Positions 112 through 32,535 of a stretch of 35,471 nt of DNA are shown here, in pieces; positions within the stretch are counted from its first letter, which is position 1; every line of letters begins with the position of its first letter. The DNA is from a virus. The notes under the pieces are model-generated. The model had not been told where the DNA came from, searched no databases, and was given only the letters and a program-made list of their open reading frames with translations. The translations under genes were made by a program, and so were the position numbers. The stretch is from the IMG/VR virus record IMGVR_UViG_3300024259_000096, positions 1-35,471 of that record, one strand, 5' to 3'.

Positions 112-442
112 TCAGTTGTCCTCTTATTTCTGTGGCAGATATTTTTTTTATATCTTCTGGTGGGGAATGTTCAATAATATCATATCCTACTCCTCTACCA
201 TAGTTTACTGATTCGATATCTGGTATAATCATAACTTTAATTACGCCCTCATCTATAAATTCTCTTAATTGATGTTGTATATTATCATAAACTTCTTCAC
301 AAGTATATGGATTTTTTTCATCAGGTAACACATCTCGAATACAAATTAAAACATTCTTACCTTCTTTAAGTCTTTGGTCAATCAACCATTGATGTCCTTT
401 ATGCCACGGTTGCCATCTGCCGATAAACATTGAGTACTTCAT
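101..442 (-). CDS. Small nucleotidyltransferase (cytidylyltransferase-like, HxGH family)
   Basis: A 113-residue protein. The N-terminus has [14 protein letters not shown], containing the HxGH nucleotide-binding signature (H14-K-G-H17) of the NMN/pantetheine-phosphate/glycerol-3-phosphate adenylyl- and cytidylyltransferase superfamily. Near the C-terminus ISATEIRG matches the second family signature (IS-S/A-T-x-I-R). It is shorter than most cellular members, so it is a minimal catalytic domain. It overlaps the APS-kinase-like gene by 44 bases upstream and thyX by about 11 bases downstream, suggesting a coupled metabolic group. The preceding message has a GAGGAG ribosome site. The substrate is unknown; it might activate a nucleotide-linked small molecule, and NMN adenylyltransfer is one alternative. 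Confidence 0.72.
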
Positions 443-866
443 CTAAACACTCCTCTATTGTTTTGTCTGTATTTATATCTACATAATTATGTAATGGTGG
501 TTCGTAATCTTCTACGAAATAATCTTCCTTACCACGTATATCCGTTGTGTGAAGATAAAACTCTGCTATATTTCTGTTAGATTTTAACTTCTCTCTCATA
601 TCTCGATATGGTGATACTAAAGATACTATTACTATAAAACCCTTATCATCCAACACCTTCGTCATATCGATAGCAAATTGAATATTTTTTCTACGACCTT
701 TTTCTGAATAATCTTTATTATCCAATACATCTCGTAAATCATCACCATCAATGTGCACAATTCTAACTGGTTGGATTTTCATGAATCCAATTAATTTATC
801 TTCTATGAATCTATTTGTTAATGTAGTCTTGCCCGAGCCGGGTTGACCTGTGAACCATAAAACCAT
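399..866 (-). CDS. Adenylylsulfate-kinase-like P-loop kinase
   Basis: A 155-residue protein starting MVLWFTGQPGSGKTT, with a Walker A loop at residues 7-15. HIDGDDLRDVL, then RRKN, then IVSLVSPYRDMR follow in the order and spacing seen in APS kinases (CysC), which phosphorylate adenosine 5'-phosphosulfate to PAPS. The protein is shorter than bacterial CysC (about 200 residues), so the C-terminal lid is reduced or altered. Phage relatives often sit in nucleotide or sugar metabolism groups and their true substrate is uncertain. An AAAGG ribosome site precedes the ATG at 866. The gene overlaps the nucleotidyltransferase, so the two may act in sequence on the same small molecule; that is inference. 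Confidence 0.75.
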   Translation of the reverse strand: MVLWFTGQPGSGKTTLTNRFIEDKLIGFMKIQPVRIVHIDGDDLRDVLDNKDYSEKGRRKNIQFAIDMTKVLDDKGFIVIVSLVSPYRDMREKLKSNRNIAEFYLHTTDIRGKEDYFVEDYEPPLHNYVDINTDKTIEECLDEVLNVYRQMATVA

Positions 867-4403: not shown

Positions 4404-5789
4404 TTAACGCCCTATAGTCTTTTTATATGCTTCATTATGCATTTGTTTATGGAATGGATACTTTTTCTGATGTGCAACGTTGCTAATGGCCTTTTCTAAA
4501 TACGGAGTGATTTCACCTACCACCTCTGGTAAAAATGGTGCTTCATAATGTTTACCAAGTGTTTGAGGTAAGTATTTTCCAATATAAGTAAACTCACACC
4601 CTACATCAAAGTACATTGGTATTTGAAATCCATCATCTAATTCCCAAATAGCAGTCTCATTAATTGTTATTGTAATTGAACTAAAATATCCTGGAGTATT
4701 TTTGAATAAATCTCCTATGGTCAAACTAATATAAGGTGCAACAGGTCTTTTTCCAGAATCATCTGTAAATTGTTCTTTATAACTTGGATAACCTAATCCC
4801 ACTAAATAATTCATTTTTTCTTGTATGATTGGTATTTCTTGTTTAGTAAATGCTGCTACTTTAAAATCAAATGATACACTTCTATCTGTTCCAGTATAGA
4901 TGTGTGTTGAATCTGGTCTACCAATATATCTTTCTTGAGAATATGTTGGTGTAACGGTATCGGTTATTGAACCCAAAAAAGCAGGAAATATTAACCATTT
5001 ACCATTTACTAAATCTCTAATTCTAAATTTTATAAAATCTTTTGGTAGTTTTGTAGTTCCAGTTCTATTTAACTGACCACCATAAGGAACTTGTAATGCA
5101 TTATGTACGGTAACATCATATAACTTTTTATTAGGATTGAGGAATGATGTTATTCCAGTACCTTTTAAATTACCACTTTTAAATCCATAATCTTCTGCCA
5201 TCTCTGGCCCTGCTAATTTATCAAATAATTTTCCAATAGACTTACCTAATCCACTTGCTTCAGGAGTAACATCTGCATTTTCCATCGGTTTAGAAACACT
5301 TTTATTATATCCAGGTGGATTTTTAAAATCTATAAATGTTCCTTTTGTATGTCTTGGAGCATGAACATAAGGTAGTACTGATGCTAACACTCCCAATGGA
5401 TTATAAATTCTGGTTTTACTGTTAGCGTTGAATCTTTGTAATACTGCTTGTTTTATATTAAAAAGAAGTCCTCTTGGTGTGACTGTCCATTTTGCCCATC
5501 TCTCTACATCCTCAATCGTCTTAATAACTTGTAATCCAATGTTACCAAACCCATCATTAAACCTATGCATTCCTAAATAAAAATCACCTGGCTGTTTTAC
5601 ATCATTACGTCCTCTATTCATACCTGCTAATTTTGAATAATCTATTGACACAGTTGTTGAATCGACCTCACTAACACGTGCAGGTGGTGTGGGCAAATTA
5701 CTTGTATTACTCGGGTTTGAACGAGATTTCTCAACTTTTTTATAGTTGAAACTTGATAAGTCTGTTTTTAATTTATCTATTACTGACAT
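4404..5789 (-). CDS. Baseplate / tail-tube-initiator-like structural protein
   Basis: A 461-residue protein. The C-terminal half carries YIGRPDSTHIYTGTDRSVSF, then a segment ending GYPSYKEQ, then PYISLTIGDLFKNTPGYFSS and LPQTLGKHYE. I recognise this as a conserved block of baseplate proteins in contractile-tail marine phages, with a tube-like fold that docks between hub and tube. A gp48/gp54-type role (starting the tube on the baseplate) would fit its place between the tape measure and LysM genes, but I cannot prove it. The N-terminal 180 residues are low in recognisable motifs and rich in N, S, P and G. Its start codon overlaps the tape measure stop (TAATG), implying translational coupling. 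Confidence 0.5.
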   Translation of the reverse strand: MSVIDKLKTDLSSFNYKKVEKSRSNPSNTSNLPTPPARVSEVDSTTVSIDYSKLAGMNRGRNDVKQPGDFYLGMHRFNDGFGNIGLQVIKTIEDVERWAKWTVTPRGLLFNIKQAVLQRFNANSKTRIYNPLGVLASVLPYVHAPRHTKGTFIDFKNPPGYNKSVSKPMENADVTPEASGLGKSIGKLFDKLAGPEMAEDYGFKSGNLKGTGITSFLNPNKKLYDVTVHNALQVPYGGQLNRTGTTKLPKDFIKFRIRDLVNGKWLIFPAFLGSITDTVTPTYSQERYIGRPDSTHIYTGTDRSVSFDFKVAAFTKQEIPIIQEKMNYLVGLGYPSYKEQFTDDSGKRPVAPYISLTIGDLFKNTPGYFSSITITINETAIWELDDGFQIPMYFDVGCEFTYIGKYLPQTLGKHYEAPFLPEVVGEITPYLEKAISNVAHQKKYPFHKQMHNEAYKKTIGR

Positions 5790-7561
5790 TATTTACCTGC
5801 TAAACCTGCTACTGTATGCATATCTTGTTTCATTGTTTTCAAAGCAAAGAGTTCCTCTTCTGCTAATTCTATTTGTCTTTGCACTTGTTTATTACTCAGG
5901 TCTCTTTCTTTTTGTTTTTCTGATGCAGCGTTTCTTTTATCTACATTACTTTTATTTTCTTTTTCACCCCTAAGAGCTGCTGTATTTGAATTTATAGCTT
6001 CCATTAATTGTTTATTAGAATCTAAAAGTGGATCACTTGTCAATTCAACTGTATTTTCTCCACGTATCAATGCACCTAATTCATCCACACCAACACCAAG
6101 TGCCTCAGCTAATCCGCGGCGTTGTAATACATTTAATCTTTGAAACTCTGCAACTCCACCAAGTTGACCAACCATATCTTGAACGGCTTCATTAACTTTA
6201 CCTTCTAATGCTAATCCTCTTGCCCTATCGAAGTTTAATTGTTTTCCAATCAACAAAGATGCTTCCATTGTTTTTGTAATAGAAGTTTCAAACTCTAATA
6301 ACCCATCTGCTATCTTAGATACTGTACCTAATTCTAATCCCATTTTATGTGCTTCTATAACAGCTTGAGTCATACTCGATACTGTACCATCCATATACTC
6401 TGCTAAAAATTCTGCATTCTCTGCCATTTCATTTATTGCAGAACCAGCTGCTATTCCCGCTTCATCAAATGTATCCCCAATATCTTTAATTAAACCTAAA
6501 CTATCTTTAATACTAACACCCAATGTGTCGGTAAAGAGTTTTGATAAACCAGCAATACTTTCTTCACTTGCCCCAAACTCTCTTCTAAGATTTGCAGCTG
6601 CAATTAATGTATCGCCTTGAACCGATTCTATTGTACCGAATGTATCTATAAATGCTGCTCCAAGTTTCGTAACATCTTCACCCATAAGTTTTATTGCGAT
6701 AGCCGCTGGGCCCATTCTTACTGCGAGTTTTGCAGCCTCCATTTGTGATATACCTAATTCATCTCGAAGGTCACCTGTAACGTTGTATGCTGCTATTAAA
6801 GCTGTAATGACTACACCTATAACCACCAAAAGTGCACCTACTCCTGTACCCATAATGGCCGCCTTCATGGCCAATCCAAAACCTTTTGCTCCTTTTATCA
6901 TACCTTTTAATCCAGCTACACTCCCACCTAACATACCAAGCATATCATCTGCAGCTTTATTACCCAACTCACTTGTTGCTTGTTCCTGTTCTTTCGCTGA
7001 AGCAATTTGTTCTGTCGTATTCAACATATTTTGTAGTTTATCTACTTTATCTTTATTTTGCTCTGCTTCTTCTCCAACCAGCGCTGCAGATTCTGTATTT
7101 AAATCATTTATTTCTTCTTGCCAAGCTGCAATTTGTTCCATAGTTTGTTCGTGGTCATACATAGCCAATTGACTAGCTGATTGATGTTTTAAAGTATCTT
7201 GTTGTGCTAACAACATCTCTTCCATCATATTTTTAGTTTCGCCGGCATTTTCGGATTGCCACACACCTACCTGTTTTTGTAATTGTTGTGACGAAACAGT
7301 ATCTTTTATTATTTTACTGGAAGTTCTATGAATCTCTGAGAGTTTCTTGGCATGAGATAATTTTGCAATATCATCAGCAAGTATTTCTTTTCCTTTATCT
7401 CTTTGCTTTTGTATCGCAGCTATTTTTTCATTAATAATCTTTAAATCTTTTTTATTAATATCAACATTACTTTTGAGCATAGATTGATATTCCTCTTGCT
7501 GTTGTTTTAGTTTTTTGAGGTCGGCTATCTGAGATTTTATTGTAGGTGTTTTGGCGGCCAT
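5789..7561 (-). CDS. Tail tape measure protein
   Basis: A 590-residue protein, close to the length of T4 gp29. The first 200 residues are strongly helical and rich in K, E and Q, as expected for a coiled-coil ruler. A hydrophobic segment at about residues 236-258 (GTGVGALLVVIGVVITALIA) is the membrane-type helix typical of tape measures. Further alanine- and glycine-rich helices follow. The protein sets tail length inside the tube and is ejected before the DNA. Position supports the call: it follows the tube and tail-chaperone-like genes and precedes the baseplate genes. The T4-like length suggests a tail of about T4 size if the usual residues-per-length ratio holds. Confidence 0.8.
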   Translation of the reverse strand: MAAKTPTIKSQIADLKKLKQQQEEYQSMLKSNVDINKKDLKIINEKIAAIQKQRDKGKEILADDIAKLSHAKKLSEIHRTSSKIIKDTVSSQQLQKQVGVWQSENAGETKNMMEEMLLAQQDTLKHQSASQLAMYDHEQTMEQIAAWQEEINDLNTESAALVGEEAEQNKDKVDKLQNMLNTTEQIASAKEQEQATSELGNKAADDMLGMLGGSVAGLKGMIKGAKGFGLAMKAAIMGTGVGALLVVIGVVITALIAAYNVTGDLRDELGISQMEAAKLAVRMGPAAIAIKLMGEDVTKLGAAFIDTFGTIESVQGDTLIAAANLRREFGASEESIAGLSKLFTDTLGVSIKDSLGLIKDIGDTFDEAGIAAGSAINEMAENAEFLAEYMDGTVSSMTQAVIEAHKMGLELGTVSKIADGLLEFETSITKTMEASLLIGKQLNFDRARGLALEGKVNEAVQDMVGQLGGVAEFQRLNVLQRRGLAEALGVGVDELGALIRGENTVELTSDPLLDSNKQLMEAINSNTAALRGEKENKSNVDKRNAASEKQKERDLSNKQVQRQIELAEEELFALKTMKQDMHTVAGLAGK

Positions 7562-7585: not shown

Positions 7586-7621
7586 AAAAAGAAATTATAT
7601 TATAATAAAAAGAAATTATAT
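7586..7621. repeat. 15-base direct repeat between two tail genes
   Basis: The sequence aaaaagaaattatat occurs at 7586-7600 and again at 7607-7621, a 21-base period. The second copy includes the stop codon of the 64-residue gene. Low-complexity AT-rich DNA makes a chance origin possible. Confidence 0.6.
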
Positions 7622-7810
7622 ACCCACAATATCATCAAGTTCATCACTTAATCTATCTAAAGACTTTTTGATATCTTTGAATTTTCGTTGAACTTTGGGA
7701 TCTCGCATAGCCTTTCTATTAACTTTCTTTCGATTTATTTCAACACCTCTTTTAAGTGCATTAAAAGCTTTATCGATTAATCCCTCTTGTATCTGTTGTT
7801 TCTTCGTCAT
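7616..7810 (-). CDS. Small basic helical protein in the tail gene cluster
   Basis: A 64-residue protein, lysine- and arginine-rich with a predicted all-helical pattern (GLIDKAFNALKRGVEINRKK, then KFKDIKKSLDRLSDELDDI). I do not recognise the family. It lies between the tail-chaperone-like gene and the tape measure. The N-terminus MTKKQQIQE-G has an I-x-E followed by glycine, the same type of site that follows the leader of the head-protein cassette near the right end. A role packaged in the head cannot be excluded, but a tail role is simpler. A repeated TATAAATATCA motif lies 34 bases upstream of its ATG. Its ribosome site (AGGAAT) is adequate. Confidence 0.6.
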   Translation of the reverse strand: MTKKQQIQEGLIDKAFNALKRGVEINRKKVNRKAMRDPKVQRKFKDIKKSLDRLSDELDDIVGI

Positions 7811-7861: not shown

Positions 7862-8059
7862 CTATTTTCTTCGAGCCCCGCGACGAGCATCCGAGTATGC
7901 CTTTTCTTCTTTTTGCTTAGCATCTACTAATAGTCTTAAATAATAATTTCTAAAATGAACAGGCATAAAATATACTTCAGAAAAAGAAAAACCATTTCCG
8001 TAATTAACTAAACTAAAAATATCTTCGTGAAGTCTTTTTTTATATTGTGAGGTCAGGCC
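7862..8059 (-). CDS. Frameshift extension of the tail-chaperone-like gene (65 codons)
   Basis: After the seven-T run at 8060-8066, a second reading frame on the coding strand gives GLTSQYKKRLHEDIF, then NYGNGFSFSEVYFMPVHFRNYYL, then a helical K/E/R-rich tail, ending at TAG 7862-7864. The segment reads like real protein and is well ordered, yet this frame has no ATG, GTG or TTG between the upstream in-frame TAG and residue 32 of the extension. It is therefore most simply made by a +1 (or -2) shift from the 254-residue frame on TTT TTT T, giving a protein of about 313 residues. Tail-assembly chaperone genes between tube and tape measure are the classic place for such shifts. A single-base homopolymer error or mutation is the alternative. 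Confidence 0.7.
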   Translation of the reverse strand, partial: GLTSQYKKRLHEDIFSLVNYGNGFSFSEVYFMPVHFRNYYLRLLVDAKQKEEKAYSDARRGARRK

Positions 8060-8804
8060 AAAAAAACGTAACCCCTATAGGTATACTTACCTTGTGGGGT
8101 TCTCCAATCTGACTTGTATAATCGAATGTTAAATCAACATCTGGTGTTATTTTTTTTAAATATTTTCTAAACTCTCTCGTATCAAGAGTAATAAATTCTT
8201 TATCAATAAATCGATTTATTGACGTTTTAGAAGTATCTCCATCTACTGAAACAATGTGTTGTTTAAGTCGTGTAGTAAATGTGGATGAATGTCCTACTTT
8301 TTGGAAGGCCTTTTCTGTTTCAGTTATTACTTCATCATCTTTATGTGTGAGTAATCTAAATTCAAGAGTTCTTTTTGAATTAGGTAAAGTAAATGAAAAC
8401 TTATTATCACTACCCTCTATTAAAGAATAATCTATTTCTTTATGTTTAATAGTAGTCAAATCAACTACAGTTTTTTCTTGTAACTTGGTATCAGGATCGG
8501 TTACTGATACTTCATAATCCTTACCATATCCAAGAATTCTTGCGCCAATCATAATTGCATTTTTATCACCTAATAAAATATCATCAAGTTTAATTTTTGG
8601 GTCTGCAATTATAGATTCTAACAATTTAGTTATTGCAAGTCCCTTTTCCAGCAAATTAGTAGAAGTAAGTATATCTTCTTCTTTTGCTGTCATATATTTT
8701 ATTTCTATTTTACCACTTGAGAGTGGACTATCTTTTGGATATAGTAATCCCTTTGAAGGTAAATCTAATACCTCTGTAGGAAAATCATATTGATTTTCAG
8801 CCAT
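8040..8804 (-). CDS. T4 gp26/PF12322-like tail assembly protein, candidate tail chaperone (unshifted form)
   Basis: A 254-residue protein. Its N-terminus has LDLPSKGLLYPKDSPLSSGK, then IKYMTAKEEDIL, then LLEKGLAITKLLESII and ILLGDKNAIMIGARILGYGKDY. These are hallmarks of the T4-type baseplate/hub assembly family often labelled gp26. The gene lies between the tube and the tape measure, where other tailed phages encode the tail-assembly chaperones G and GT. The frame ends at TAA 8040-8042, just after a seven-T run that overlaps a second coding frame. A good AGGAG ribosome site supports the ATG at 8804. It likely binds the tape measure while the tube polymerises; that is inferred from position. 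It could instead be a baseplate hub part. Confidence 0.75.
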   Translation of the reverse strand: MAENQYDFPTEVLDLPSKGLLYPKDSPLSSGKIEIKYMTAKEEDILTSTNLLEKGLAITKLLESIIADPKIKLDDILLGDKNAIMIGARILGYGKDYEVSVTDPDTKLQEKTVVDLTTIKHKEIDYSLIEGSDNKFSFTLPNSKRTLEFRLLTHKDDEVITETEKAFQKVGHSSTFTTRLKQHIVSVDGDTSKTSINRFIDKEFITLDTREFRKYLKKITPDVDLTFDYTSQIGEPHKVSIPIGVTFFWPDLTI

Positions 8805-8875: not shown

Positions 8876-9028
8876 TTACTTACTTGGTGAGAATTTCTCT
8901 TTGATTGGTTTAAGTAACATATCAAATAAGATATCGTCATATTTAGTGGGCGTCATTTTTACGATTTTTTCTAAAGCGTAAATAACCACTAAAACATATT
9001 CCCAATTTCCTGCTATCCATTCAGTCAT
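8876..9028 (-). CDS. Small membrane-type protein (50 residues)
   Basis: A short gene translated as MTEWIAGNWEYVLVVIYALE, then KIVKMTPTKYDDILFDML, then a lysine-rich end. AGGAG precedes the ATG at 9028 with normal spacing, and the gene fills the gap between the tube and chaperone genes. Residues 10-23 form one hydrophobic helix, followed by a T-P-T-K-Y-D-D turn and an amphipathic helix. Small holin-like or membrane-associated proteins with this EKIVK.TPTKYDD pattern are common in marine phages, but I cannot assign a function. A tail or virion role is possible because of its location. Confidence 0.6.
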   Translation of the reverse strand: MTEWIAGNWEYVLVVIYALEKIVKMTPTKYDDILFDMLLKPIKEKFSPSK

Positions 9029-12549: not shown

Positions 12550-15500
12550 TTAATCTTTTAATTCCTCGACTTCGGTTAAAACTTTCAATGAGTCTACCTC
12601 TATTTTTAATTCTTTAATAGATTCTATCAAAATAGGTACAAGTTTATTATAATCAACTGATTTAAATGAACCTTTACCATTCAATCCTTCGTGTTCTTTC
12701 ACAAGTTCAGGAATAACTGCTTCTACTTCTTGTGCTAACACACCAACATCGTGTCCCATATCTTCTCGTTTCCAATCATACTCAACACCACGAAGTTGCA
12801 TCACAGTATCTAAACCATATTTAGTATCTGTAATATTTTCTTTAAGTCTCATATCAGATGCAACGGTTGAAGAATAAGCAACAATGTCAGCGTCTGCGTG
12901 GAATGTTCCACCATTTGCGAATCTAAATTCTTCTTCACCTGCCAATGCAACTCCAATATCATCTGCACTTTCTAAGAAGAAACCACTATTACCATCAGAA
13001 GTAAATCTTATAGATGGTGCAGCTTTTGTACCACTTGAAACTTCAATTCTTGAAGATGATACATATGTTGTTGTTTGTAAACCACCACCAGAAGCACTTA
13101 CATAATTCACACCATAGTGTCCAAAGAATGCATCTGAACTACCACTTATTACACCTGATGAATCTAAACGACCTTTAATCTCAACAGCTTCTTGTGAATT
13201 AACAGTATGAACTGATAGTACTGAATTTCCACCAGATCCTGCTTGAAATACTATAGCTCCTGTAGCGTTATCTTTTAGAGCTACCTCTGTGGGGTTATTT
13301 GTCAATACAATATCACCACCCTGTACTGTTAAATCTCCACTTAATGTTAACCCTGTGAATTCTGGTGAATCACCAGTTCCAACTCCTAATGAAGTTCTTG
13401 CTGTATTTCCACTTTCTGCTACTGGATCAGTTGTACCATCACCGACAAGAAACGCTCCATCAGCCGTAACATCTAAAGCCGTTATAGCTCCAGTTCCACT
13501 ACCAAGTAAAACGTGACCATCTGTAAATGAACTTGCTCCAGTTCCACCATCGGCTACTGTCAAATCAGTAATTCCTGTAATTGTACCACCAGTAATAGTT
13601 GCCGTAGTAAACAAACCGATAGATGCACTTACACTTGAACCAGATATATTAGTGGTTCCTGAACTATTTCTAAATAAGACAGAACCATCACCAGTAAATG
13701 AAGCACTCATAGAATTTCCACCAAGTGTTCCTACTACGAAATCTCCACTACCACTCAATAATCCAGAAGTTTGTAAATCACCAGTAATTGTTGTTCCACC
13801 TACAGCTATTGTACCAAAAGTAACATCTGCATCAGATGAAACGTCTTGGTTAATTATTGAGTTTGCCTCTATAGAAATTGTTTTAACACCACCACCAGTA
13901 TTCTGTCCTAATGTAGTTCCATAGACCGCTGAACCTGTAATCGTTCCAGTAGAATTAACATTACTAACTCCATCAATAGTTCCACTATCGATATCAACGG
14001 ATGTCATATTTTGACTACCAAAATTTATCGCTCCAGCTGCTTCAAATGCTCCAATTTTAGTAACAGTTAAAGTATCCGTAGCAAAAGTCATATCTGAATC
14101 ATGGGATAATACACCATCAGTTCCTGCAAAAACTACTCGTGTTGCAGTTAATCCATCAGCTGTTAATGTTGCTGCTCGTAAATCGTGAGAACCAATATCT
14201 AAGTTTCCATCTGCTGTAAGACTTGTAACACCACTAATAGATGTATGTACTGCTTTAGAAGAACTTAATTGTGAACCTGATATATGAGTTGTACCTGAAG
14301 TATTTCTAAATATAACTTCACCACCACTATCGGAAGAACTTATAGAGTTTCCACCTACATCTCCTATAAATAAATCACCACTACCACTAATATCACCTGT
14401 TACTCTTAAATTTCCACCAGCTGCATATCCTATAACTAAATCACCACCAACTAAATTAACTTTTCCAGCTGCATGTGATAAGGACATATTACCATTATTC
14501 CAATTAATTACACCCTCACTACCTAAAAATAAATCACTAAACATTTTTGAAGTAGTACCAAGTGCTATATCATCATTTGTAGTTGGTTCAATAGTTCCAT
14601 CTGTAAATGCTACTTGGTCTGCACCAGCCGCTTCAAATGTAATAATATCATCATCAGATGCTCGAATTGATGTATCTAAATCATCATCTAAATCTATTCT
14701 ACCTTGTCCATCTAAGGTTACATTATCAGTAAATACATTTGTAAATTGTGTTCCAGATGCACCTATTGCAAATACACTATCTGTATGAGCAGTGATATTA
14801 CCCGATACCTCTGTATTACCCATAATAGATAAACTTCCAGAGAATACGTGAGTATCATCATTGGTATCACCAAAGATGGTTGAACCACTTGAATAACTTT
14901 GAGTTACATTAGTAACCGATGAACTTACTATCAATTCTTGTGCTGTTAAACTACCTGCAAGTGTTAAATTATTAAATTGTGGATTCGCATCTTTTGTTAA
15001 ATCTTGGTCTACAGTAGCACTATCTTCTACAGTTAAAGTTTTTGATGCTGCACTATATGTTATTGTTCCACTATTTCCATCACCGACTGTAAGAGACTCA
15101 TTCATTGTAAATGTATTTGCTTGTCCAGCTGCCGCTAATACTACATTTTGTCCATCACTAACTGTTAAATCTTCATTTAAAGTAAGTTGATGTAATCCTG
15201 TACCAGTATTATGTTTTATTTCTGTAAAGTGTCCAGTTGAACCAGTAATACCACCTGCTGCTGTTGCCTGTGATGTAACTTCTAATCCACCACTCATCTT
15301 TACTTTTTCAGAACCATCTGTAGTAACAACTTCTAATATACCAGCTTTACCACTTGCGTCAAATGACAATGCTGAAGCATTATTATCAATCAAATCTACA
15401 TCCGTAGCCTGGCCAGTTATAGTTATATCTCCAGTAGAAGTTAATCCAGCAAAAGTTGGTGCTGCATCTGAACTAAGGTCTTGATTAACTACTGAATTTG

Positions 15501-17016
15501 CTTCAATACTAATAGTTTTAAGACCGCCACCAGTATTTTGACCTATAGTAGTTCCATAAACTGCAGAACCACTAATTGTTGCTCCTGTTATATTAGTAAA
15601 TGTAACATTATCTCCTGTACCAACACCAATAGATGTTCTAAGTGTTGCTCCACTTTCTGCTACTGGGTCGGTTGAACCATCTCCAACAATCATCTCTCCA
15701 TCTGAAAGAACTCCCATTGCTGTTATAGCATCAGTACCACTACCTAATAATACACCACCATCAGTTAATGAACTTGCTCCTGTACCACCATCTGCTACAG
15801 TTATATCTGTAATTCCTGTGATTGTACCAGCAGATATAGTTGCAGTACCGAATGTTCCTGTAGGTGCTTTTACTTCAGAACCACTTATATAATTTGTCGC
15901 TTGTAAACTACCAGCCGATGCACTTACATAATTCACACCATATTGACCAAAGAATGCATCTGAACTACCACTTAATATACCTGATGTTTTCAATACACCT
16001 TGAACCTCAACCGCTTCGGCTGAATTATTAGTGTGAACAGATAATACCGAAGTTCCACCAGCTCCTGCATCAAATGTTAATGCAGATGTAGTATTATCAA
16101 TTAAGTCAATATCAGTAGCTTGTCCAGTTAAAACAATATCACTCGTAGAAGTTACTCCTGCAAATGTTACTGCTGAATCGGTCTTAACATTTTGATCCAT
16201 GTCATACAATTCATTCGCACCTTGACCAGTGTCAACTGTAGCGAATGTTACTGCTGCGTCTGTAGTTAAATCTTGATTTACAGTTGAATTGGCTTCTATT
16301 GTTATAGTTTTAACACCATCAACCCTATTTTGACCTAATGTAGTTCCATAAACTGCGGAACCTGTAATCGTTCCATTAGATGTTATATTACCAACTGCTG
16401 ATTCTGCACCCAATGTAACACCATCAATTTCACCTGCGTTAATATAAGCAGTAACTGGATCCCCATCCGTTCCTAATGAATCAATATAACCTACTCCATT
16501 TACATAAATGTCTTTCCATTGTTTACCACTTGAACCTAAATCAAATGCGTTATCATTATTTGGGATTAATGAGGACGAAACTTCAGCTTCAAAAACTACA
16601 TCATCAGAATCTGCATCTCCAAGAGTTATTTGTCCTCCAAGTGTTAAGTCACCTGTTACTTTAGCATTACCTTGTATATGTAGTGCTGAACCTGATATAA
16701 TTGAACCACTAATATTAGCAACTGCTCCAGAACCACTCGTAAATGTTATTCCACTATCTGTAGCTTTAATTTGTTGTATAATTGTACCTGCTGGATCTAC
16801 AAAATTAATAGAAGATGTTGCAACATATATCTCTTGCCAAACGTGAGAAGTACTACCTAAATCATAAGTATGTGTTGTTGATGGTACAAAATCTGCACTG
16901 GCAGTAATCGTATTCGAAGTTTGATTAAGTGCCAACATCGAAGCAGTTGATTCAGCAGTAATCCCTTTAGGATCGTGTAATTCGGCGTTGGTTAACGCAC
17001 TATGTAATTTAGCCAT
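12550..17016 (-). CDS. Large tail fibre/adhesin with C-terminal Peptidase_S74 chaperone domain
   Basis: A 1488-residue protein. Most of it is a G/S/T-rich beta shaft with repeated modules: three copies of GSAVYGTT(I/L)GQN, two of a VADGGTGASS block and two of a SSDAFFGxYGVNYVSAS block. The last 102 residues form an intramolecular chaperone/auto-protease: SDMRLKENI, then GVEYDWK, HDVGVLAQEVEAVIPELV, and a coiled coil at the end. In this family (endosialidase and T5 L-shaped fibre chaperones) a serine and a lysine five residues later cut off the chaperone after trimer folding; here they are Ser1387 and Lys1392. A GAGGA site precedes the ATG. The fibre probably recognises the host surface. It is the longest protein in the window. 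Confidence 0.88.
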   Translation of the reverse strand: MAKLHSALTNAELHDPKGITAESTASMLALNQTSNTITASADFVPSTTHTYDLGSTSHVWQEIYVATSSINFVDPAGTIIQQIKATDSGITFTSGSGAVANISGSIISGSALHIQGNAKVTGDLTLGGQITLGDADSDDVVFEAEVSSSLIPNNDNAFDLGSSGKQWKDIYVNGVGYIDSLGTDGDPVTAYINAGEIDGVTLGAESAVGNITSNGTITGSAVYGTTLGQNRVDGVKTITIEANSTVNQDLTTDAAVTFATVDTGQGANELYDMDQNVKTDSAVTFAGVTSTSDIVLTGQATDIDLIDNTTSALTFDAGAGGTSVLSVHTNNSAEAVEVQGVLKTSGILSGSSDAFFGQYGVNYVSASAGSLQATNYISGSEVKAPTGTFGTATISAGTITGITDITVADGGTGASSLTDGGVLLGSGTDAITAMGVLSDGEMIVGDGSTDPVAESGATLRTSIGVGTGDNVTFTNITGATISGSAVYGTTIGQNTGGGLKTISIEANSVVNQDLSSDAAPTFAGLTSTGDITITGQATDVDLIDNNASALSFDASGKAGILEVVTTDGSEKVKMSGGLEVTSQATAAGGITGSTGHFTEIKHNTGTGLHQLTLNEDLTVSDGQNVVLAAAGQANTFTMNESLTVGDGNSGTITYSAASKTLTVEDSATVDQDLTKDANPQFNNLTLAGSLTAQELIVSSSVTNVTQSYSSGSTIFGDTNDDTHVFSGSLSIMGNTEVSGNITAHTDSVFAIGASGTQFTNVFTDNVTLDGQGRIDLDDDLDTSIRASDDDIITFEAAGADQVAFTDGTIEPTTNDDIALGTTSKMFSDLFLGSEGVINWNNGNMSLSHAAGKVNLVGGDLVIGYAAGGNLRVTGDISGSGDLFIGDVGGNSISSSDSGGEVIFRNTSGTTHISGSQLSSSKAVHTSISGVTSLTADGNLDIGSHDLRAATLTADGLTATRVVFAGTDGVLSHDSDMTFATDTLTVTKIGAFEAAGAINFGSQNMTSVDIDSGTIDGVSNVNSTGTITGSAVYGTTLGQNTGGGVKTISIEANSIINQDVSSDADVTFGTIAVGGTTITGDLQTSGLLSGSGDFVVGTLGGNSMSASFTGDGSVLFRNSSGTTNISGSSVSASIGLFTTATITGGTITGITDLTVADGGTGASSFTDGHVLLGSGTGAITALDVTADGAFLVGDGTTDPVAESGNTARTSLGVGTGDSPEFTGLTLSGDLTVQGGDIVLTNNPTEVALKDNATGAIVFQAGSGGNSVLSVHTVNSQEAVEIKGRLDSSGVISGSSDAFFGHYGVNYVSASGGGLQTTTYVSSSRIEVSSGTKAAPSIRFTSDGNSGFFLESADDIGVALAGEEEFRFANGGTFHADADIVAYSSTVASDMRLKENITDTKYGLDTVMQLRGVEYDWKREDMGHDVGVLAQEVEAVIPELVKEHEGLNGKGSFKSVDYNKLVPILIESIKELKIEVDSLKVLTEVEELKD

Positions 17017-17070
17017 TAAAGTTCCTCATATATATTAAATATTTCATTATAAATTTTTCATCTGTTTTTT

Positions 17071-17532
17071 TTATTCAAAATAAACAAATTCACCTGTATT
17101 TGTAGTTACAAACCTGAGATTACCTAATGTTAGTTCGGCCGAACCATCAGAAGTAACAGCAACACCCCTTTCGAATGCTGCAACTGATAATACGCCTGTT
17201 AAACCTTCACCACTTCCTTCATATGTTGAAGAAGATACATGATTAAATGAACCAGTACCTTGTCCTGTACTCGTCATTACTTCTAATTCACCAAATGAAC
17301 CTGTTGAAGTTTCTGAACCACTTATTATATTTAAGCTTCCAGAAAGTGCACCTCTCCAAGATCCACTAACATCAGATGATTGAGCGACTCCAGACAATGA
17401 AGTGGCATTACCAACAAACGAGCCACTAATAGTAGTAGCACTTATAGTATTACTTACTAATACATTACTACCTGTAATTTGGTTGAGTTGGGCGTTTGAG
17501 CCCGAAACTATGACTTTTTTCCAACTTGGCAT
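17071..17532 (-). CDS. Short fibre-type structural protein
   Basis: A 153-residue protein starting MPSWKKVIVSGSNAQLNQIT, a start typical of small pelagic-phage fibre proteins. The body has S-G-S repeats (GSFVGNATSLSGVA, SGSWRGALSGSLN, GSFNHVSSSTYEGSGEGLTG) and a beta-rich end, RFVTTNTGEFVYFE. It could be a short adhesin, a fibre connector, or a decoration protein. An AGGGAG ribosome site precedes the ATG. It is the second smallest member of the fibre group and shares composition, but not the long repeats, with the larger fibres. Confidence 0.65.
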   Translation of the reverse strand: MPSWKKVIVSGSNAQLNQITGSNVLVSNTISATTISGSFVGNATSLSGVAQSSDVSGSWRGALSGSLNIISGSETSTGSFGELEVMTSTGQGTGSFNHVSSSTYEGSGEGLTGVLSVAAFERGVAVTSDGSAELTLGNLRFVTTNTGEFVYFE

Positions 17533-17537
17533 TTAAT

Positions 17538-17588
17538 TTATCTCCCTACGGTTGGTAACTCGTTGTGAGCCCACTTCCCTGTTGCCAT
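17538..17588 (-). CDS. Candidate 16-codon mini-gene upstream of short fibre gene
   Basis: The coding strand reads MATGKWAHNELPTVGR then TAA, ending five bases before the ATG of the 153-residue gene. The stretch has about half G+C, well above its surroundings, which fits constraint on it. There is no clear ribosome site, so translation is unproven. It could be a leader peptide, or the constraint may be on RNA or DNA. Confidence 0.25.
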   Translation of the reverse strand: MATGKWAHNELPTVGR

Positions 17589-17612
17589 ACAAGGCCAATA
17601 AGTTTTCTGTTT

Positions 17613-17623
17613 AATAAATATCA
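17613..17623 (-). promoter_or_regulatory. Repeated intergenic motif, copy 3
   Basis: AATAAATATCA on the plus strand (ten of eleven bases match), in the gap between the 636-residue fibre gene and the 153-residue gene, 25 bases upstream of the mini-gene ATG. Confidence 0.35.
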
Positions 17624-17639
17624 AAAATTTCACTTTTCT

Positions 17640-19550
17640 TTATCCTGTTCTTACCCAAATTTCTTCATCTGTGGTATTTACCCACATTTCACCTGAACCA
17701 TATGAACCAGAATCCGTATTTGGATTATGATTTGCAGTGGTTGTTGTGGTTACATATGCGGTTGGTGTTACAGCAGTTCCATCTGATGCAACTCCTTTTC
17801 CTACTGCCCATCTTTCATCTTGTATGTCGTGATATATAGCAGAACCACTATCTGCTGCTGAACCACTCTGTACAATCAATCCACCATCTACATTGGATGC
17901 TGCTGAACCTGTTGCTGCAAATACAAAAGCGTCCTGAACTTTCAAGTTTGTAGTAGATAATGTAGTGGTATCACCTCGTACTGTTAAATCTCCAGTTAGT
18001 GTCAAATCTGCAAATGTAGGATTTGCATCTGTCGTTAAATCTTGGTTTACAGTTGAATTAGCCTCAATAGTAATGGTTTTCAGTCCATCAGTTCTATTCT
18101 GTCCTATTGTAGTTCCATAAATTGCTGAACCACTAACTATTCCAGTTGATGTAAGAGAAGTTCCTATTATTGCTGCAAATGTACCAGCACGTGCAGTATC
18201 AGCACCAATAATACCATCAACATTAGTACCAATTAAATCTGTAGCAGTGATTGATGTAGCTGCAGATACCGTACCTAAATCTACTATTGTATTTCCTGCG
18301 TTTGTCCAATTACCAATAACCTCACCCATTGTAATTGCTCCAAACGAACCAGTTGATGTAGCAGAACCACTAATATCACCACTTGCGGTCATATTACCTG
18401 TAATATTTATATCATCTGTAAACGATATACCATCTACTGAACCACCCGTTGATTGAAAATTGTCAGCGTATACTGTACCACTTGAACTAATATTACCACT
18501 TGCAGTTATATGATTAAATTGTACATTGGCGTCTGTTGTTAAATCTTGATTAACTGTAGAGTTAGCTTCAATGGTTATTGTTTTTACACCATCAACTCTA
18601 TTCTGTCCTATTGTAGTTCCATAAACTGCTGAACCACTAATTGTACCAATAGATGTTATCGAATCTCCTGATACAGTCGAACCACTAATAGTTCCACTTG
18701 CTGTAAATCCAGCATTAAATGAACCACTTATATCATCTGCAATTTGAGCAGAACTACTAACAGTACCACTTGGTAAAGACTCTACAACTTGTAATGAACC
18801 ACTATGTAAAACTGGTTTACCAGTTATGTCTGCAAATGCAACTGAAACTTCTTCTGATGATAATCCTGTTAATCCTGCACCATCACCTGCAAAATAAGAT
18901 GCAGTTATTGCTCCTTGTACATCAAGACCAGTTTTTAATGTTCTTCCAACATATTGATATGCTGTTAAAAATACAACTTCATTTGAAGCGGGATCGTGTG
19001 CAGAACTTAAAAATTGTAATACCCCCGTTTTATAATCAAATATATAATCATTTCCAGAAATTTTATCACCCGAACCTAATGAACCAGTTTGTGAAGCTTG
19101 AGTATAAGTTGAAGATTTATAAGCAACTACACCATACCCAGGAGTTGCATCTTCAGTTGTAGAGTTTGCTAAAGAAGCAACTGAATATTTAGGTGATATA
19201 AAACTTGTTTGTTGATTATCATCTATTAACTGAGCACCAATTCCATCATCACTTCCTGTTGGATTCAAAAAGAACCAAACTTCATCATTTACATTAGAAG
19301 GTGTTAACTTATGTCTATACCAATATTTCATCACGTTTGAACCTGATGCTGATTGGGTAAATCCATGTTGAGAACTTCCACTATAAGGTAATCCAGAAGA
19401 AGGAATATACTGAGCTTGTGTATAAATTTCTTCTTCTCTTAAATCAAGTACATTCGTAAACGACTCTTGTGCAGTCGTATATGTGTTATGCGTATATCTT
19501 CTTGACGCTAACAGTCTACTTGATTTTGAACCTGAATCTATAAATCCCAT
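17640..19550 (-). CDS. Tail fibre/adhesin protein with shared repeat modules
   Basis: A 636-residue protein. Residues 1-230 form a distinct domain (MGFIDSGSKSSRLLASRRYT, then LDLREEEIYTQ, MKYWYRHKLT, EVWFFLNPTGSDDG), probably for attachment to the virion. Then comes a repeat shaft with two GSA(V/I)YGTTIGQNR modules, each followed by KTITIEANSTVNQDLTTDAN. The C-terminus (DERWAVGKGVASDGTAV, then GEMWVNTTDEEIWVRTG) looks like a tip domain. No chaperone domain is present, so it folds alone or with a helper. The gene begins eight bases after the stop of the 1122-residue gene with a GAGAG site, so it is in the same unit. Confidence 0.75.
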   Translation of the reverse strand: MGFIDSGSKSSRLLASRRYTHNTYTTAQESFTNVLDLREEEIYTQAQYIPSSGLPYSGSSQHGFTQSASGSNVMKYWYRHKLTPSNVNDEVWFFLNPTGSDDGIGAQLIDDNQQTSFISPKYSVASLANSTTEDATPGYGVVAYKSSTYTQASQTGSLGSGDKISGNDYIFDYKTGVLQFLSSAHDPASNEVVFLTAYQYVGRTLKTGLDVQGAITASYFAGDGAGLTGLSSEEVSVAFADITGKPVLHSGSLQVVESLPSGTVSSSAQIADDISGSFNAGFTASGTISGSTVSGDSITSIGTISGSAVYGTTIGQNRVDGVKTITIEANSTVNQDLTTDANVQFNHITASGNISSSGTVYADNFQSTGGSVDGISFTDDINITGNMTASGDISGSATSTGSFGAITMGEVIGNWTNAGNTIVDLGTVSAATSITATDLIGTNVDGIIGADTARAGTFAAIIGTSLTSTGIVSGSAIYGTTIGQNRTDGLKTITIEANSTVNQDLTTDANPTFADLTLTGDLTVRGDTTTLSTTNLKVQDAFVFAATGSAASNVDGGLIVQSGSAADSGSAIYHDIQDERWAVGKGVASDGTAVTPTAYVTTTTTANHNPNTDSGSYGSGEMWVNTTDEEIWVRTG

Positions 19551-19558
19551 ATCTCTCT

Positions 19559-22500
19559 CTAACTAAAGGTTAATGTAATATCATCTATTGGTGCCGGGTC
19601 ACCTGTATATCTAACTATTACGTATAATTCGTTATCTGTATTATCTAAATACATTCCATCACTATTTCTCATTGGAACTGTATATGTTCCACTTCCAACA
19701 CTACCACCAGTATTTCCATATAAATCTATTGCGGAACTAAATGGATTTAAAAAATTATCATTTGCCACACTTGACGAAATTACATTTTCGGTTGTCTCAG
19801 AAGGATCATATATCCTTGCCGTTGACAATTCACTATTTCCACCACTTCCACTTCCTGCACTCTTAAATAGTAATGCACAAGCTACTTTATTATTAGTAGA
19901 AGCCTTCCAATTAACTAATGTATTATTATTAAGATTAACTGTCATACTTGTTTTTGTTCCACTTATTTGAAATCTTCGTACATAATACTTATATGTTGCA
20001 CTACTATGATAATCTTCAGGATACCAATATCTATAATCTCCACCTGGTTCTACCAAATATCCAGGTTTCACTTGTAAATCATAATTTCCTAAATGATCTT
20101 GACTTGACGTAAAATTAGTAAACCAAGGCAAACCATTAAATCCTGTTACATCATTTGTTAATCTAATTCTAAAATCTTCACCCGTAAATGTCTCGGTTGT
20201 TCCTGCTAATGCACCACCATCATATCCTTGTGCTCTCTGATAAACTCCCAAAGAACCACTTGAAGCAGGTTGTCCAAGTGTACTTCCACTATGATAGAAA
20301 AATGTATAAGTTGCTAAAGTAGATTGAGAATTTGCTCTATTTCTTCCTCTCACACCAACAGTAAATGTTGTATCGCCTGTTCCCGTTTGGTCTATATTTT
20401 CTCCAGTAGTTCCACTTAATGTATAAATTGCATTATGTCTATATACATCAGTTCTATATGGAACTGTACTTGTACTTCGTAATGTTGCTCCCGAACCAGA
20501 CGTACTAAGTACTGCATTTGCAGTTTGTATAGTTCCACCACTTGTACTTAATCCATCTACTCCAGATGTTGCTGCAACTGAACCAACTCCAACTGAACCT
20601 ATCGTATCATCCGCTATTGTTGATGAATCCTTATACATTGGATCAAATAATCCATGAACTGATGCACTTAAATGATAAGTTGCACCTATCAAATAAGGTA
20701 CACCACTTAAACTTCTACTTGTTGCTGTTAAATAACTTTGAGTTACTGAAGTTATTCCTCGTGTATTACTTCCAATATCACTTTCTATTTGATCGATTGG
20801 TGCCCAAAAATTATTTTTTGTTGTTCCATCTTTAAATGCATAATTTCCTGAACCAGATGAAATTCCAACTACTAAGTCATGAAATCTATAATATCCACTA
20901 GCGGATACACTTGAAAAATCTTGTGCTCCTGTCTTATATAATCTTGTCAAAGAACCAGTCATATCAGTACCACCTAAATTTTCAAACTTTCCATCTTGAT
21001 ATGCTGCTGGAATAACTGCTGGTTGTGCTGTATTAATTTTTGCTAATTCTACTCCATTCGAACTCCCAAATGAAGTTAATGACACATCAAACTGTGACTG
21101 AGTATAAAATGTAGCTGATGCAGTTGTAGGTGCCGAAACACTTCCCGTATCACTAAATGATTGTGTTGCAACTACTCTAACATCAAATCTTGTAGCCGCT
21201 CCACTTGTCAATCCACCCAAACCAAATAATTGTGCATCTGCAGAAGAACTAATTGTCGTAGTACCACCTGCTACAGTATCAAAATCTACAGAATAAGATG
21301 GGCCATTATCGTGATATACTGTAATTCCACTAAATATTTTCGTACCTGTACCTACCCAATTCTTAGTAACTAAATATTTTAAAGTAGCATTTGAATCATC
21401 ATAACTTTGAGGTAAATATCCATCACAACTATCTGTAGTACCTAAACTATTTTCAGTTGTAGTTAAACTTGCCCAAGTTTTTGTATTTGGTGAAGCATCT
21501 GCAACATCTAAGGAATGACTTAACACACCTGACATAAATCTTAAAATTTCACTTACATTAGTGGTGTTATCAAAATTATTAAAATAACTACCACCTAAAC
21601 TTGTTCCCCAGGGATTTGAAGTTGGGTATCCATTTGTAATATTATTTGTATAAATTGCTGTAGAACTTGAGTAAACACCCTCTGCTTGTACATTTAAAGT
21701 ACCAGATATATAATTTGAACCAGTAATATCTAAAGAACCACTAAATACGTGTGTATCATCCATACTGTCACCAAAAATATTACTACCACTTGCAAAACTC
21801 TGAGTTAAATATGTTACAGAAGAACTAACAATATATTGTTGTGCAGTTAAATCTCCTGTAATGATAAGACTTCCTGTTATATTAGAATCACCAGTTAAAT
21901 TTACTCCAGCAAAAGTTGGTGAACTTGTAGTTAATACATTTTGATTCATATCATAAAGTTCATTCGCACCCTGACCAGTATCAATTGTAGCAAATGTTAC
22001 TGCTGCATCTGTACTAACATCTTGGTTTATTGTAGAATTTGCTTCAATACTAAGAGTTTTAACACCTGTAGCAGTGTTTTGTCCAATAGTTGTACCGTAA
22101 ACTGCAGAACCAGTAATAGTTCCAGTTGAAGTAACATTACCAACACCTAACGTACCCAATGTAGCATCTGCATCTGTAGATACGTCTTGATTTATAATTG
22201 AGTTTGCTTCTATCGTAATGGTTTTCAAACCATCTGTACGATTTTGTCCAATCGTAGTTCCATATACTGAAGAACCACTAACTATACCTGTAGATGTTAC
22301 GTTACCTACACCCAAAGTTCCTAATGTGGCATCTGCGTCAGTAGAAACATCTTGATTTATAATTGAGTTTGCCTCAATTGTAATAGTTTTCAACCCATCA
22401 GTTCTGTTTTGACCTATTGTAGTACCATAAACAGATGAACCAGTTATAGTTCCACTTGCTGTAACGTGTGTAGTACTAACATTTGATATTGTACCACCTA

Positions 22501-22927
22501 TTGTTAAACTATCTACAATTTCCGCGTCATCACTTGAATACAAATGTTCTGAATATACTATTCCACTTGCACTTATATTAGAACTAGCTGTTACGTTTGT
22601 TGCAGATATTTCTTCTATATGACCAGATTTCCAATTTTTACTTGTACTACCAATATCATATGTACTATCTGCATTTGGTATAAGATTAGAAGTTAAATCT
22701 GCATTAATGGTTATTGAATCACTATCTGCATCACCGATTGTAATATTACCACCAAGTGTTAAGTCACCTGTAAGAGTTGAATTGCCAGCAACCTCTAACT
22801 TACCAAAAGAACCAGTTGAAGTGGAAGAACCACTAATGTTCCCATTGGTAACTTCAATTCCACCTCTTCTAACTTTGAGTTTATGATTGAGGTGATTTAA
22901 TCCAAGTCTTTGTAGAGAATCAGCCAT
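19559..22927 (-). CDS. Large tail fibre/adhesin with triplicated shaft repeats
   Basis: A 1122-residue protein. The first 420 residues form a shaft: three consecutive modules GS(S/A)VYGTTIGQN followed by IEANS(I/T)INQDVSTDA, the first two nearly identical in protein and DNA. The remaining 700 residues are a large beta-rich head with no recognised enzyme motif (YTNNITNGYPTSNPWG, GYYRFHDLVVGISSG, VPYLIGATYHLSASVHG, YLVEPGGDYRYWYPEDYHS). Such C-terminal heads of pelagic phages probably contact the cell surface or cap the fibre. AAGGGAA precedes the ATG. There is no S74 domain. I cannot tell whether this is a long fibre or a baseplate-associated adhesin. Confidence 0.75.
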   Translation of the reverse strand: MADSLQRLGLNHLNHKLKVRRGGIEVTNGNISGSSTSTGSFGKLEVAGNSTLTGDLTLGGNITIGDADSDSITINADLTSNLIPNADSTYDIGSTSKNWKSGHIEEISATNVTASSNISASGIVYSEHLYSSDDAEIVDSLTIGGTISNVSTTHVTASGTITGSSVYGTTIGQNRTDGLKTITIEANSIINQDVSTDADATLGTLGVGNVTSTGIVSGSSVYGTTIGQNRTDGLKTITIEANSIINQDVSTDADATLGTLGVGNVTSTGTITGSAVYGTTIGQNTATGVKTLSIEANSTINQDVSTDAAVTFATIDTGQGANELYDMNQNVLTTSSPTFAGVNLTGDSNITGSLIITGDLTAQQYIVSSSVTYLTQSFASGSNIFGDSMDDTHVFSGSLDITGSNYISGTLNVQAEGVYSSSTAIYTNNITNGYPTSNPWGTSLGGSYFNNFDNTTNVSEILRFMSGVLSHSLDVADASPNTKTWASLTTTENSLGTTDSCDGYLPQSYDDSNATLKYLVTKNWVGTGTKIFSGITVYHDNGPSYSVDFDTVAGGTTTISSSADAQLFGLGGLTSGAATRFDVRVVATQSFSDTGSVSAPTTASATFYTQSQFDVSLTSFGSSNGVELAKINTAQPAVIPAAYQDGKFENLGGTDMTGSLTRLYKTGAQDFSSVSASGYYRFHDLVVGISSGSGNYAFKDGTTKNNFWAPIDQIESDIGSNTRGITSVTQSYLTATSRSLSGVPYLIGATYHLSASVHGLFDPMYKDSSTIADDTIGSVGVGSVAATSGVDGLSTSGGTIQTANAVLSTSGSGATLRSTSTVPYRTDVYRHNAIYTLSGTTGENIDQTGTGDTTFTVGVRGRNRANSQSTLATYTFFYHSGSTLGQPASSGSLGVYQRAQGYDGGALAGTTETFTGEDFRIRLTNDVTGFNGLPWFTNFTSSQDHLGNYDLQVKPGYLVEPGGDYRYWYPEDYHSSATYKYYVRRFQISGTKTSMTVNLNNNTLVNWKASTNNKVACALLFKSAGSGSGGNSELSTARIYDPSETTENVISSSVANDNFLNPFSSAIDLYGNTGGSVGSGTYTVPMRNSDGMYLDNTDNELYVIVRYTGDPAPIDDITLTFS

Positions 22928-29836: not shown

Positions 29837-31003
29837 TTAAATTATATTAGCTAATTTCTTGAACCTTGCTTTAATACTATCACCTTCAGTAATTACTTTT
29901 TTAGAGGGTTTAGTTGAAGCAACGGCTTTAGAACTTGAACCTTTAGATTCTTGAATTGGTTTAGATTTTGTCTGACCAAAAGATTCTGCAAGTGTTGAGA
30001 AAACAAGTTTGATTTCTCTAAGATTCTTAGTTCTATCAAAAGTTTCAACAACTTTCATTTTCTGTTCGTTACTTAAACCATACGCACGAAATAGTTTATT
30101 AGTGAATAATAGTTTAGCGTTCAATAAATTAACTTCATTAAGTTTAGAACGTAGATATTTTACAACATCTCTATGTTCTTTAACTTCTTTTTTAAGTGTA
30201 GCGATTTGTTCCACGTCTGCTTCTTCATCATCTTCTTCAGAAAGAGCTTTCAATACTTCTTCAAGATCAATATCTTCTTCAACATCTGTTACAGCATCCT
30301 CTTGTGGGGGTGCTAGTGGATCATCAGTTGATTTATCAGTATTTTCAACAACTTCATCGTCTTCGTTCTCTTTACCTGCTGGTGCGTCAGCACTATCAGA
30401 AGGTTCTTCAGAACCCTGACCTACGTCAGATGAATCAGCTGCGTCAGCTTTGACTTTGTTATCAGCATCACCGATTTCAGAGGATACATCGTTTTCAGAA
30501 ACTTCTTCGTGACCATCTTCAGTATCTTCATCTTCGTATTCTTCAGATACTTCTTCGTCATCTTCTTCAAGTTCACGTAGAATAGCTTCTAAATCGAGTT
30601 CATCAACTGTTTCGTCATCTTCATCAGTTTCTTCAGCAACTGGTTCTTCTTCGTCTTCATCAGACATTTCGTCTTCTTCAGCTACTGGTTCTTCTTCATC
30701 TTCATCAGATATTGCTGCTACAGGTTCAACTTCGTCATCTTCATCAGATAGTTCATCTTCTTCAGATACAGGTGCACTTGGTTCTTCAGATGGAACTACT
30801 TCGTCATCCTCATCTTCCAAAGGTGCATCTTCTGTTACTTCTTCATCACCATCTTCATCTTCGATTTCATGTTGAATCTTCTTTGCTAACATTGATTTTA
30901 AACGTGGAGTAAATGCTTCTTCAAGCGCCATTTTAGCATTAGCGAGAGCTGTTTCACGAACTGCTTTTGCATCTGCGATGGCTTCTTTCAATAAGTCATC
31001 CAT
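29837..31003 (-). CDS. Prohead core/scaffolding protein (gp22-like)
   Basis: A 388-residue highly acidic protein. Residues about 45-270 are dominated by E and D, with near-tandem repeats of SDEDEEEPVAEE. The N-terminus is helical. The C-terminal block NEVNLLNAKLLFTNKLFRAY, then GLSNEQKMKVVETFDRTKNL, then EIKLVFSTLAES matches the layout of T4 gp22. The protein forms the inner core on which the head assembles and is later degraded by the prohead protease. It contains several L/I-x-E sites, for example VITE near the C-terminus. It lies just upstream of the major capsid gene, as in T4. The 146-base leader carries two perfect inverted repeats. A CGGAG site precedes the ATG. Confidence 0.85.
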   Translation of the reverse strand: MDDLLKEAIADAKAVRETALANAKMALEEAFTPRLKSMLAKKIQHEIEDEDGDEEVTEDAPLEDEDDEVVPSEEPSAPVSEEDELSDEDDEVEPVAAISDEDEEEPVAEEDEMSDEDEEEPVAEETDEDDETVDELDLEAILRELEEDDEEVSEEYEDEDTEDGHEEVSENDVSSEIGDADNKVKADAADSSDVGQGSEEPSDSADAPAGKENEDDEVVENTDKSTDDPLAPPQEDAVTDVEEDIDLEEVLKALSEEDDEEADVEQIATLKKEVKEHRDVVKYLRSKLNEVNLLNAKLLFTNKLFRAYGLSNEQKMKVVETFDRTKNLREIKLVFSTLAESFGQTKSKPIQESKGSSSKAVASTKPSKKVITEGDSIKARFKKLANII

Positions 31004-31446: not shown

Positions 31447-31818
31447 TTAACTCCATCCCGCTAAAATTTTATTTACTCTTTCCTTTTCCCTTTTTCTATA
31501 ATCCTTCATTGCGCTTTTAGCATCTTTAAGAAACGAATTAAGTTTACTATCGTTTAATTTATCAAGGTCATCAAGACCCCCAATCCTATACTTCTTTTTT
31601 AAAGGTTCAAACGCCGTCGCTTTGGCTGATAGTGTTTTAGCCCCACCACCACCAGATGGTGATAATTGATTTCGAAGATAGGCTTTAACTTTTTTTAACA
31701 AATCGGGGTCAGTACCTTCATATACTGTTTTTGATTGATGTTTTTCAGCAACACTTTTTAAAGTTGGTAATGGTTCACCAAATTTTCTTTCGTTTAGTAA
31801 TTTTTTTAATTTAATCAT
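31447..31818 (-). CDS. Candidate internal head protein with leader and FGEPLPTL module
   Basis: A 123-residue protein that starts MIKLKKLLNE-RKFGEPLPT. The first ten residues match the leader of its neighbours and end in L-N-E, the type of site that T4-style prohead protease cuts. Next is the module KFGEPLPTLKSVAEKH, also found after the leader in the gene at 34636-34983. The rest is basic and helical (LLKKVKAYLRNQLSPSGGGG, then LKDAKSAMKDYRKREKERVN). The gene overlaps the next upstream gene at one base (TAATG). The likely role is an internal or core protein packaged in the head; the function after injection is unknown. Confidence 0.65.
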   Translation of the reverse strand: MIKLKKLLNERKFGEPLPTLKSVAEKHQSKTVYEGTDPDLLKKVKAYLRNQLSPSGGGGAKTLSAKATAFEPLKKKYRIGGLDDLDKLNDSKLNSFLKDAKSAMKDYRKREKERVNKILAGWS

Positions 31819-32516: not shown

Positions 32517-32535
32517 TATTATTCTCCTATTACTA

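Follow-up and report, generated by a model that had tools for sequence, protein, structure and literature searches.

A conserved YTT TGG C site and a predicted +1 frameshift in the gp26/gp51-type tail chaperone gene of a clade of T4-superfamily phages

Background

The lambda G and GT proteins are the short and long products of one gene beside the tape measure gene, the long one arising by a -1 shift. A 2016 review describes the G-T frameshift as widely conserved, with T4 as the exception and with shifts of -1, -2 and +1 in different phages; HSTV-2, belonging to another phage group, appears there as a likely +1 tail-chaperone case (PMC5009743). In a review of the T4 tail, gp26 and gp51 are listed as hub assembly chaperones, gp51 being required and absent from the particle (PMC3004832). 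In some T4-like phages a short gene is accompanied by a long fused one (PMC10885494), and the TAC-N genes of T4-like phages are known to contain poly-T signals for -1 shifts (PMC12846349). Chaperone identity and -1 sites are, in consequence, prior knowledge for this family. Vladimirov, Gautam and Davidson reportedly identified the tail assembly chaperones of T4-like phages in 2022 and recast gp26 and gp51 as such. As for forward shifts, the prfB (RF2) gene has the +1 site CUU UGA C and yeast Ty1 the +1 site CUU AGG C.

Here we describe a tail-chaperone gene that very probably makes its short and long forms by a programmed +1 frameshift. It is found in the IMG/VR virus record IMGVR_UViG_3300024259_000096, analysed over its whole 35,471 nucleotides (the window). 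Like lambda G/GT it is one gene beside the probable tape measure, with a predicted short and a predicted long product, and it differs in the direction of the shift. With T4 gp26/gp51 it shares the PF12322 short form, a homologous C-terminal extension and, presumably, the chaperone role, whereas T4 has two separate genes in place of one gene with a frameshift. The gp26-gp51 pairs of cyanophages and KVP40 (P-SSM2, S-PM2, HTVC008M, KVP40) consist of these two pieces as well, and there too the frames overlap at a T-rich site shortly before gp26 ends, but the second frame is -1, an apparent shift in the opposite direction, and in most cases an ATG comes after the stop. Regarding the slip itself, prfB and Ty1 have the forward slip of a YUU P-site codon that is predicted here, prfB also a G-rich Shine-Dalgarno-like element upstream and Ty1 the same +1 codon GGC; the A site differs, being occupied by sense UGG in our locus and by a stop (prfB) or AGG (Ty1) in the others.

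The overlapping frames and their genomic setting

The features of the locus are the following.

8040..8804, minus strand: short-product gene (G-like, TAC-N), 254 aa, T4 gp26 / PF12322 family
8057..8063, minus strand: slip heptamer TTT TGG C, with P-site TTT at 8063-8061 and A-site TGG at 8060-8058
8066-8060, minus strand: seven-T run, read directly, containing the start of the slip heptamer
7862..8062, minus strand: extension (T-like) in the +1 frame, 66 codons (FGLTSQYKKRLHEDIF...) and TAG
7862..8804, minus strand: predicted frameshift product (GT-like, TAC-NC), 313 aa, ...GVTFF-GLTSQYK...
8072..8075, minus strand: Shine-Dalgarno-like GGGG(U), 8 nt upstream of the P-site codon
9050..9541, minus strand: tail tube gene, upstream of the chaperone gene (phrog_4542 tail tube protein, E 7.3e-26)
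5789..7561, minus strand: probable tape measure gene, 590 aa, downstream, assigned by position (the annotated tape measure of Flavobacterium phage immuto follows the homologous locus)

Read directly on the minus strand, the short-product gene starts with ATG at 8804 and ends ATA GGG GTT ACG TTT TTT TGG CCT GAC CTC ACA ATA TAA. The zero-frame stop TAA lies at 8042-8040 and the C-terminus of the short product is ...VTFFWPDLTI; the original prediction, made from the window alone, had this frame ending directly after TTTTTTTGG and was wrong here, as six more codons (WPDLTI) precede the TAA. The overlapping, startless coding frame that it had placed in the +1 (= -2) frame at the T run was confirmed. 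After a TAG at 8077-8075 this frame is open from 8074 and ends with the TAG at 7864-7862, with 66 codons counted from the slip codon (8062-7865). The -1 frame, as had been seen, is stopped at once by the TGA at 8055-8053 (TTG GCC TGA), two codons past the T run, so the extension is not open in it. Equally correct was the absence of a start codon for independent translation: there is no ATG, GTG or TTG ahead of the conserved domain in the window, and the first ATG falls inside the domain (MPVHF). The 313-aa fusion was translated with TGGC read as one step (TGGC=G). The predicted +1 junction peptide of the window phage is VSIPIGVTFFGLTSQYK, while a -2 slip would give VSIPIGVTFFFGLTSQYK instead.

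The gene had also been placed between the tube and the tape measure, which holds, with the tail tube upstream and the probable tape measure downstream by synteny with immuto. The product of 5789..7561 had no family match in PHROGs or Pfam. Small ORFs lie between the chaperone gene and the tail tube, and likewise between the chaperone gene and the tape measure; a sheath gene is found beyond the tail tube, further upstream, and the major capsid protein in the window is of the Gp23 type. The combination of PF12322, tail tube, sheath and Gp23-type capsid therefore identifies the window as part of a T4-superfamily myovirus. The small proteins flanking the chaperone gene (8879-9028 and 7619-7810, both minus strand) have no assigned role and match phrog_402 (E 4e-5) and phrog_994 (E 0.005), respectively.

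Protein family and structure

The short product matched PF12322, the T4 baseplate protein gp26 family, with 30.1 bits over residues 28-248 (curated cut-off 24.5), and the baseplate hub family phrog_150 with an E of 6.4e-11. Both gp26 and gp51 of T4 belong to PF12322, gp51 carrying an extra C-terminal stretch. When the +1 extensions were compared by hhalign with a set of gp51 C-termini from cyanophages, pelagiphages, KVP40 and T4, the match reached 93.6% (E 2e-7), against a best value of 3.9% in 100 column shuffles. With the cyanophage rows removed, the T4 gp51 C-terminus alone was not detected (hhalign 0.56%) and the link to T4 therefore runs via the cyanophage sequences. This profile comparison makes the extension a homologue of the extra C-terminal stretch of T4 gp51.

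An AlphaFold2 model of the fusion had a mean pLDDT of 81.5 and a pTM of 0.74, with a confident short part and a low-confidence extension. In BFVD it matched PF12322 proteins, among them the baseplate hub subunit of SP-15 (TMt 0.81). The similarity to the HK97 tail chaperone 2ob9 was weak (TMt 0.45, prob 0.11, E 5.0), even if this was the top TM among the 50 PDB matches listed. A sequence search of the PDB with the queries P0002 and T4 gp51 returned nothing useful.

Conservation of the slip site and of the extension

Searches of IMG/VR gave 80 loci through the short product and 24 through the extension, with others added later. Counting distinct sequence contexts, 71 were obtained, nearly all from IMG/VR and including two isolate genomes. 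No relative was detected in contigs of bacterial or archaeal genomes. The slip site is YTT TGG CC, with the prfB-type YUU U at the P site, in all 71 contexts, and the +1 frame is open through the homologous extension in 70 of them, the exception being L228. The variants of the site are distributed as follows.

TTT TTT TGG (TTTTTTTGG): 53 contexts
TTC TTT TGG (TTCTTTTGG): 10 contexts
TTT CTT TGG (TTTCTTTGG): 7 contexts
TTC CTT TGG (TTCCTTTGG): 1 context

In 18 of the 71 the T run is thus interrupted and only three or four T remain; 17 of these 18 keep the +1 extension. In the window phage the extension gave dN/dS values of 0.20 and 0.37 against its nearest relatives (L006 and L007, respectively) and, judged by these values, is under purifying selection. 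In an alignment of 28 relatives the invariant residues F and G start exactly at the slip. As far as sequence comparison goes, then, the site, the frame and the direction of the shift are conserved and the extension is coding.

Both isolates show the same arrangement. In Microcystis phage Mel-JY01 (PP395634) the two pieces are annotated as hypothetical proteins, and in Flavobacterium phage immuto (NC_055915) one is called a "baseplate hub subunit" and the other a truncated hypothetical protein; their predicted +1 junction peptides are ...VNFFGLSNEYR (Mel-JY01) and ...IPIGVSFLGLTPEYR (immuto). The fusion is nevertheless not universal: a nested pair of relatives, L223 (around 2218) and L228 (around 2215), encodes the extension on its own, as a gene that begins with ATG in the -1 frame and adds some new N-terminal residues. 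In L223 the slip site has been lost too.

Mechanism and alternative explanations

The ribosomal event, together with its rate and its role in assembly, we infer as follows. Most ribosomes would read on to the TAA and produce the short chaperone (G / TAC-N). In a minority, with tRNA-Phe on UUU in the P site and the presumably slow Trp codon UGG in the A site, the tRNA would slip one base forward, from UUU UGG C to U UUU GGC, and the stop would be bypassed. The +1 product, the long form (GT / TAC-NC), would gain a 65-residue C-terminal extension. If the parallel with lambda G/GT and T4 gp26/gp51 holds, the tape measure would be coated by the short form and tail tube subunits would be recruited by the extension.

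A +1 slip moves the P-site tRNA from UUU or CUU to UUU in every variant of the site, and the variants with a broken T run keep the frame, which argues for a +1 P-site slip (YUU to UUU) over both a -2 slip and transcriptional slippage. On the seven-T site alone tRNA-Phe could also re-pair after moving back two bases, reaching the same frame with one extra Phe at the junction, and -2 shifting is known for phage Mu (PMC5009743). However, in the relatives with TTC TTT TGG or TTT CTT TGG a P-site tRNA shifted by -2 would meet UCU or UUC, both mismatched, and we consider such a shift very unlikely. The event had been proposed as +1/-2; its first half survives in a conserved +1 extension of a gp26-family gene, and the second does not, these variants keeping only the +1 re-pairing. 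Even less credible is slippage of transcription on the T run, with mRNAs containing one U fewer or two U more, a process for which the seven consecutive T of the window would be suitable but for which the relatives with four T or fewer have no homopolymer left.

The extension might instead be a separate small gene, translated from a non-standard start or coupled to the upstream stop, as suggested by the ATG-started ORFs of L223 and L228 and by the cyanophages, most of which have an ATG after the stop of the short form and a piece annotated as gp51. We find this improbable for the window phage and its relatives: besides the startless extension in the window, 22 of 62 relatives have no ATG, GTG or TTG in the extension frame as far as the slip and slightly beyond it, the remainder share no consistent start, the invariant F and G begin where the slip does, and the site itself is conserved at the nucleotide level. 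An ATG-started gene for the extension had been named as a result that would speak against the frameshift; it is absent from the window phage and present, in the -1 frame, in two relatives from another sublineage, L223 and L228. Finally, the homopolymer at the junction raises the suspicion of an assembly or sequencing error, or of a decayed gene. The chance of this is negligible, and the relatives have refuted it already: in dozens of independent contigs and in both isolates the two frames are related in the same way, also at sites lacking a long homopolymer, and the extension is under purifying selection. Nor can the extension be an open frame by chance, as it is open and homologous in 70 of 71 distinct relatives. 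The slip site is moreover identical in four further contigs carrying the window allele, which excludes a homopolymer miscall, so that the wrong T count which the original prediction had named as a refuting result is ruled out by the site variants and by these contigs. Its overall interpretation is partly supported, and the programmed +1 slip is the reading followed below.

Constraint at the RNA level and candidate stimulators

Synonymous codon choice around the site is constrained, a sign of selection on the RNA. The Gly codon of the +1 frame is GGC in 62 of 62 relatives against a background of 8.7%, a position where dual coding contributes to the constraint. At codon -4, GGG is used in 43 of the 55 relatives with Gly there (78%), against 6.2% of the Gly codons elsewhere in these genes, and at codon -2 the Thr codon is ACG in 32 of 39 (background 3.9%). 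The SD-like GGGG is a possible stimulator, but several lineages lack it and it lies 8 nt away from the slip codon; a spacing like that of prfB, where the SD is 3 nt upstream, had to be discarded. No conserved RNA structure was found in a search for a downstream stem-loop or pseudoknot in the relatives (mean z -0.65 and -0.41). A hairpin around the slip site of the window (GGGGUUA / UGACCUC, -9.9 kcal/mol in a 33-nt fold) was rejected as well, with no convincing covariation and another register pairing equally well.

Direction of the frameshift in the gp26/gp51 family

All 75 distinct cyanophage-like loci from IMG/VR are -1, with the heptamer T TTT TTC in 74, and four of them offer no start codon from which a separate product could be made. 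In P-SSM2, S-PM2, HTVC008M and KVP40 it is the -1 frame that holds the extension, annotated there as a small gp51 gene. A fused gp26-gp51 product is likely in cyanophages. Taken as a whole, the cyanophage-type pairs (L130-L209, NC_006883, NC_006820, NC_020484, NC_005083) are mostly -1 with T TTT TTC, and gp51 is annotated separately.

Three phages of Gram-positive hosts, SP-15 (Bacillus), LIS04 (Listeria) and GXN1 (Streptococcus), have a PF12322 gene followed by a homologous +1 extension, unannotated or truncated, and differ from our locus in having no YTT TGG C site. Their shared motif CC CGA is a possible but doubtful slip site, with poor re-pairing for GCC and ACC. In a maximum-likelihood tree of the short products a fully supported branch separates all -1 members plus T4, whose rows are long branches, from all +1 members, SP-15, LIS04 and GXN1 included. 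On this tree a single change of direction would be enough. It is conceivable, if doubtful, that the proportion of long and short chaperone is set by slow decoding of the one Trp codon in a sense-codon site, YUU_UGG_C, fixed across a deep clade of the T4 superfamily, with the sister clade using -1 for the same two-part protein, so that the direction changed once and the product was kept.

In the literature searched, where Vladimirov 2022 is represented by the papers citing it, we found no description of a +1 YTT_TGG_C site. This site, which a whole deep clade conserves and which the annotation of isolates has overlooked, is the part that looks new; recasting the gp26 "baseplate" family as tail chaperones, also proposed from the window, is supported but had already been published. 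The gp26/gp51 family lines up the two-gene solution of T4, the -1 site, the +1 site and the separate gene for the same short and long proteins, and the evolution of recoding direction becomes testable inside one gene family. Furthermore, the locus brings a +1 site at a sense codon for which natural variants already exist, and it puts right the annotation of phage genomes that leave the extension out or label it as a separate hypothetical gene.

Other features of the window

Six genes at 31447-35276 (minus strand) have a common N-terminus, M(I/A)KLKxL(I/L)xE, and both an acidic scaffold-like gene (29837-31003) and the Gp23 capsid gene are close by. In T4 the prohead protease cuts a capsid targeting sequence, which this N-terminus resembles, and the six genes may code for internal head proteins. 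At one end of the window, a cytidylyltransferase-like gene (PF01467) adjoins an APS-kinase-like gene (PF01583, 62 bits) at 104-442 and 402-866 (minus strand), a pair that possibly represents host-metabolism genes. Several large fibre genes at 12550-22927 (minus strand) have common repeated modules of the type TIGQNRxDGLKTITIEANSxxNQDLTTDA.
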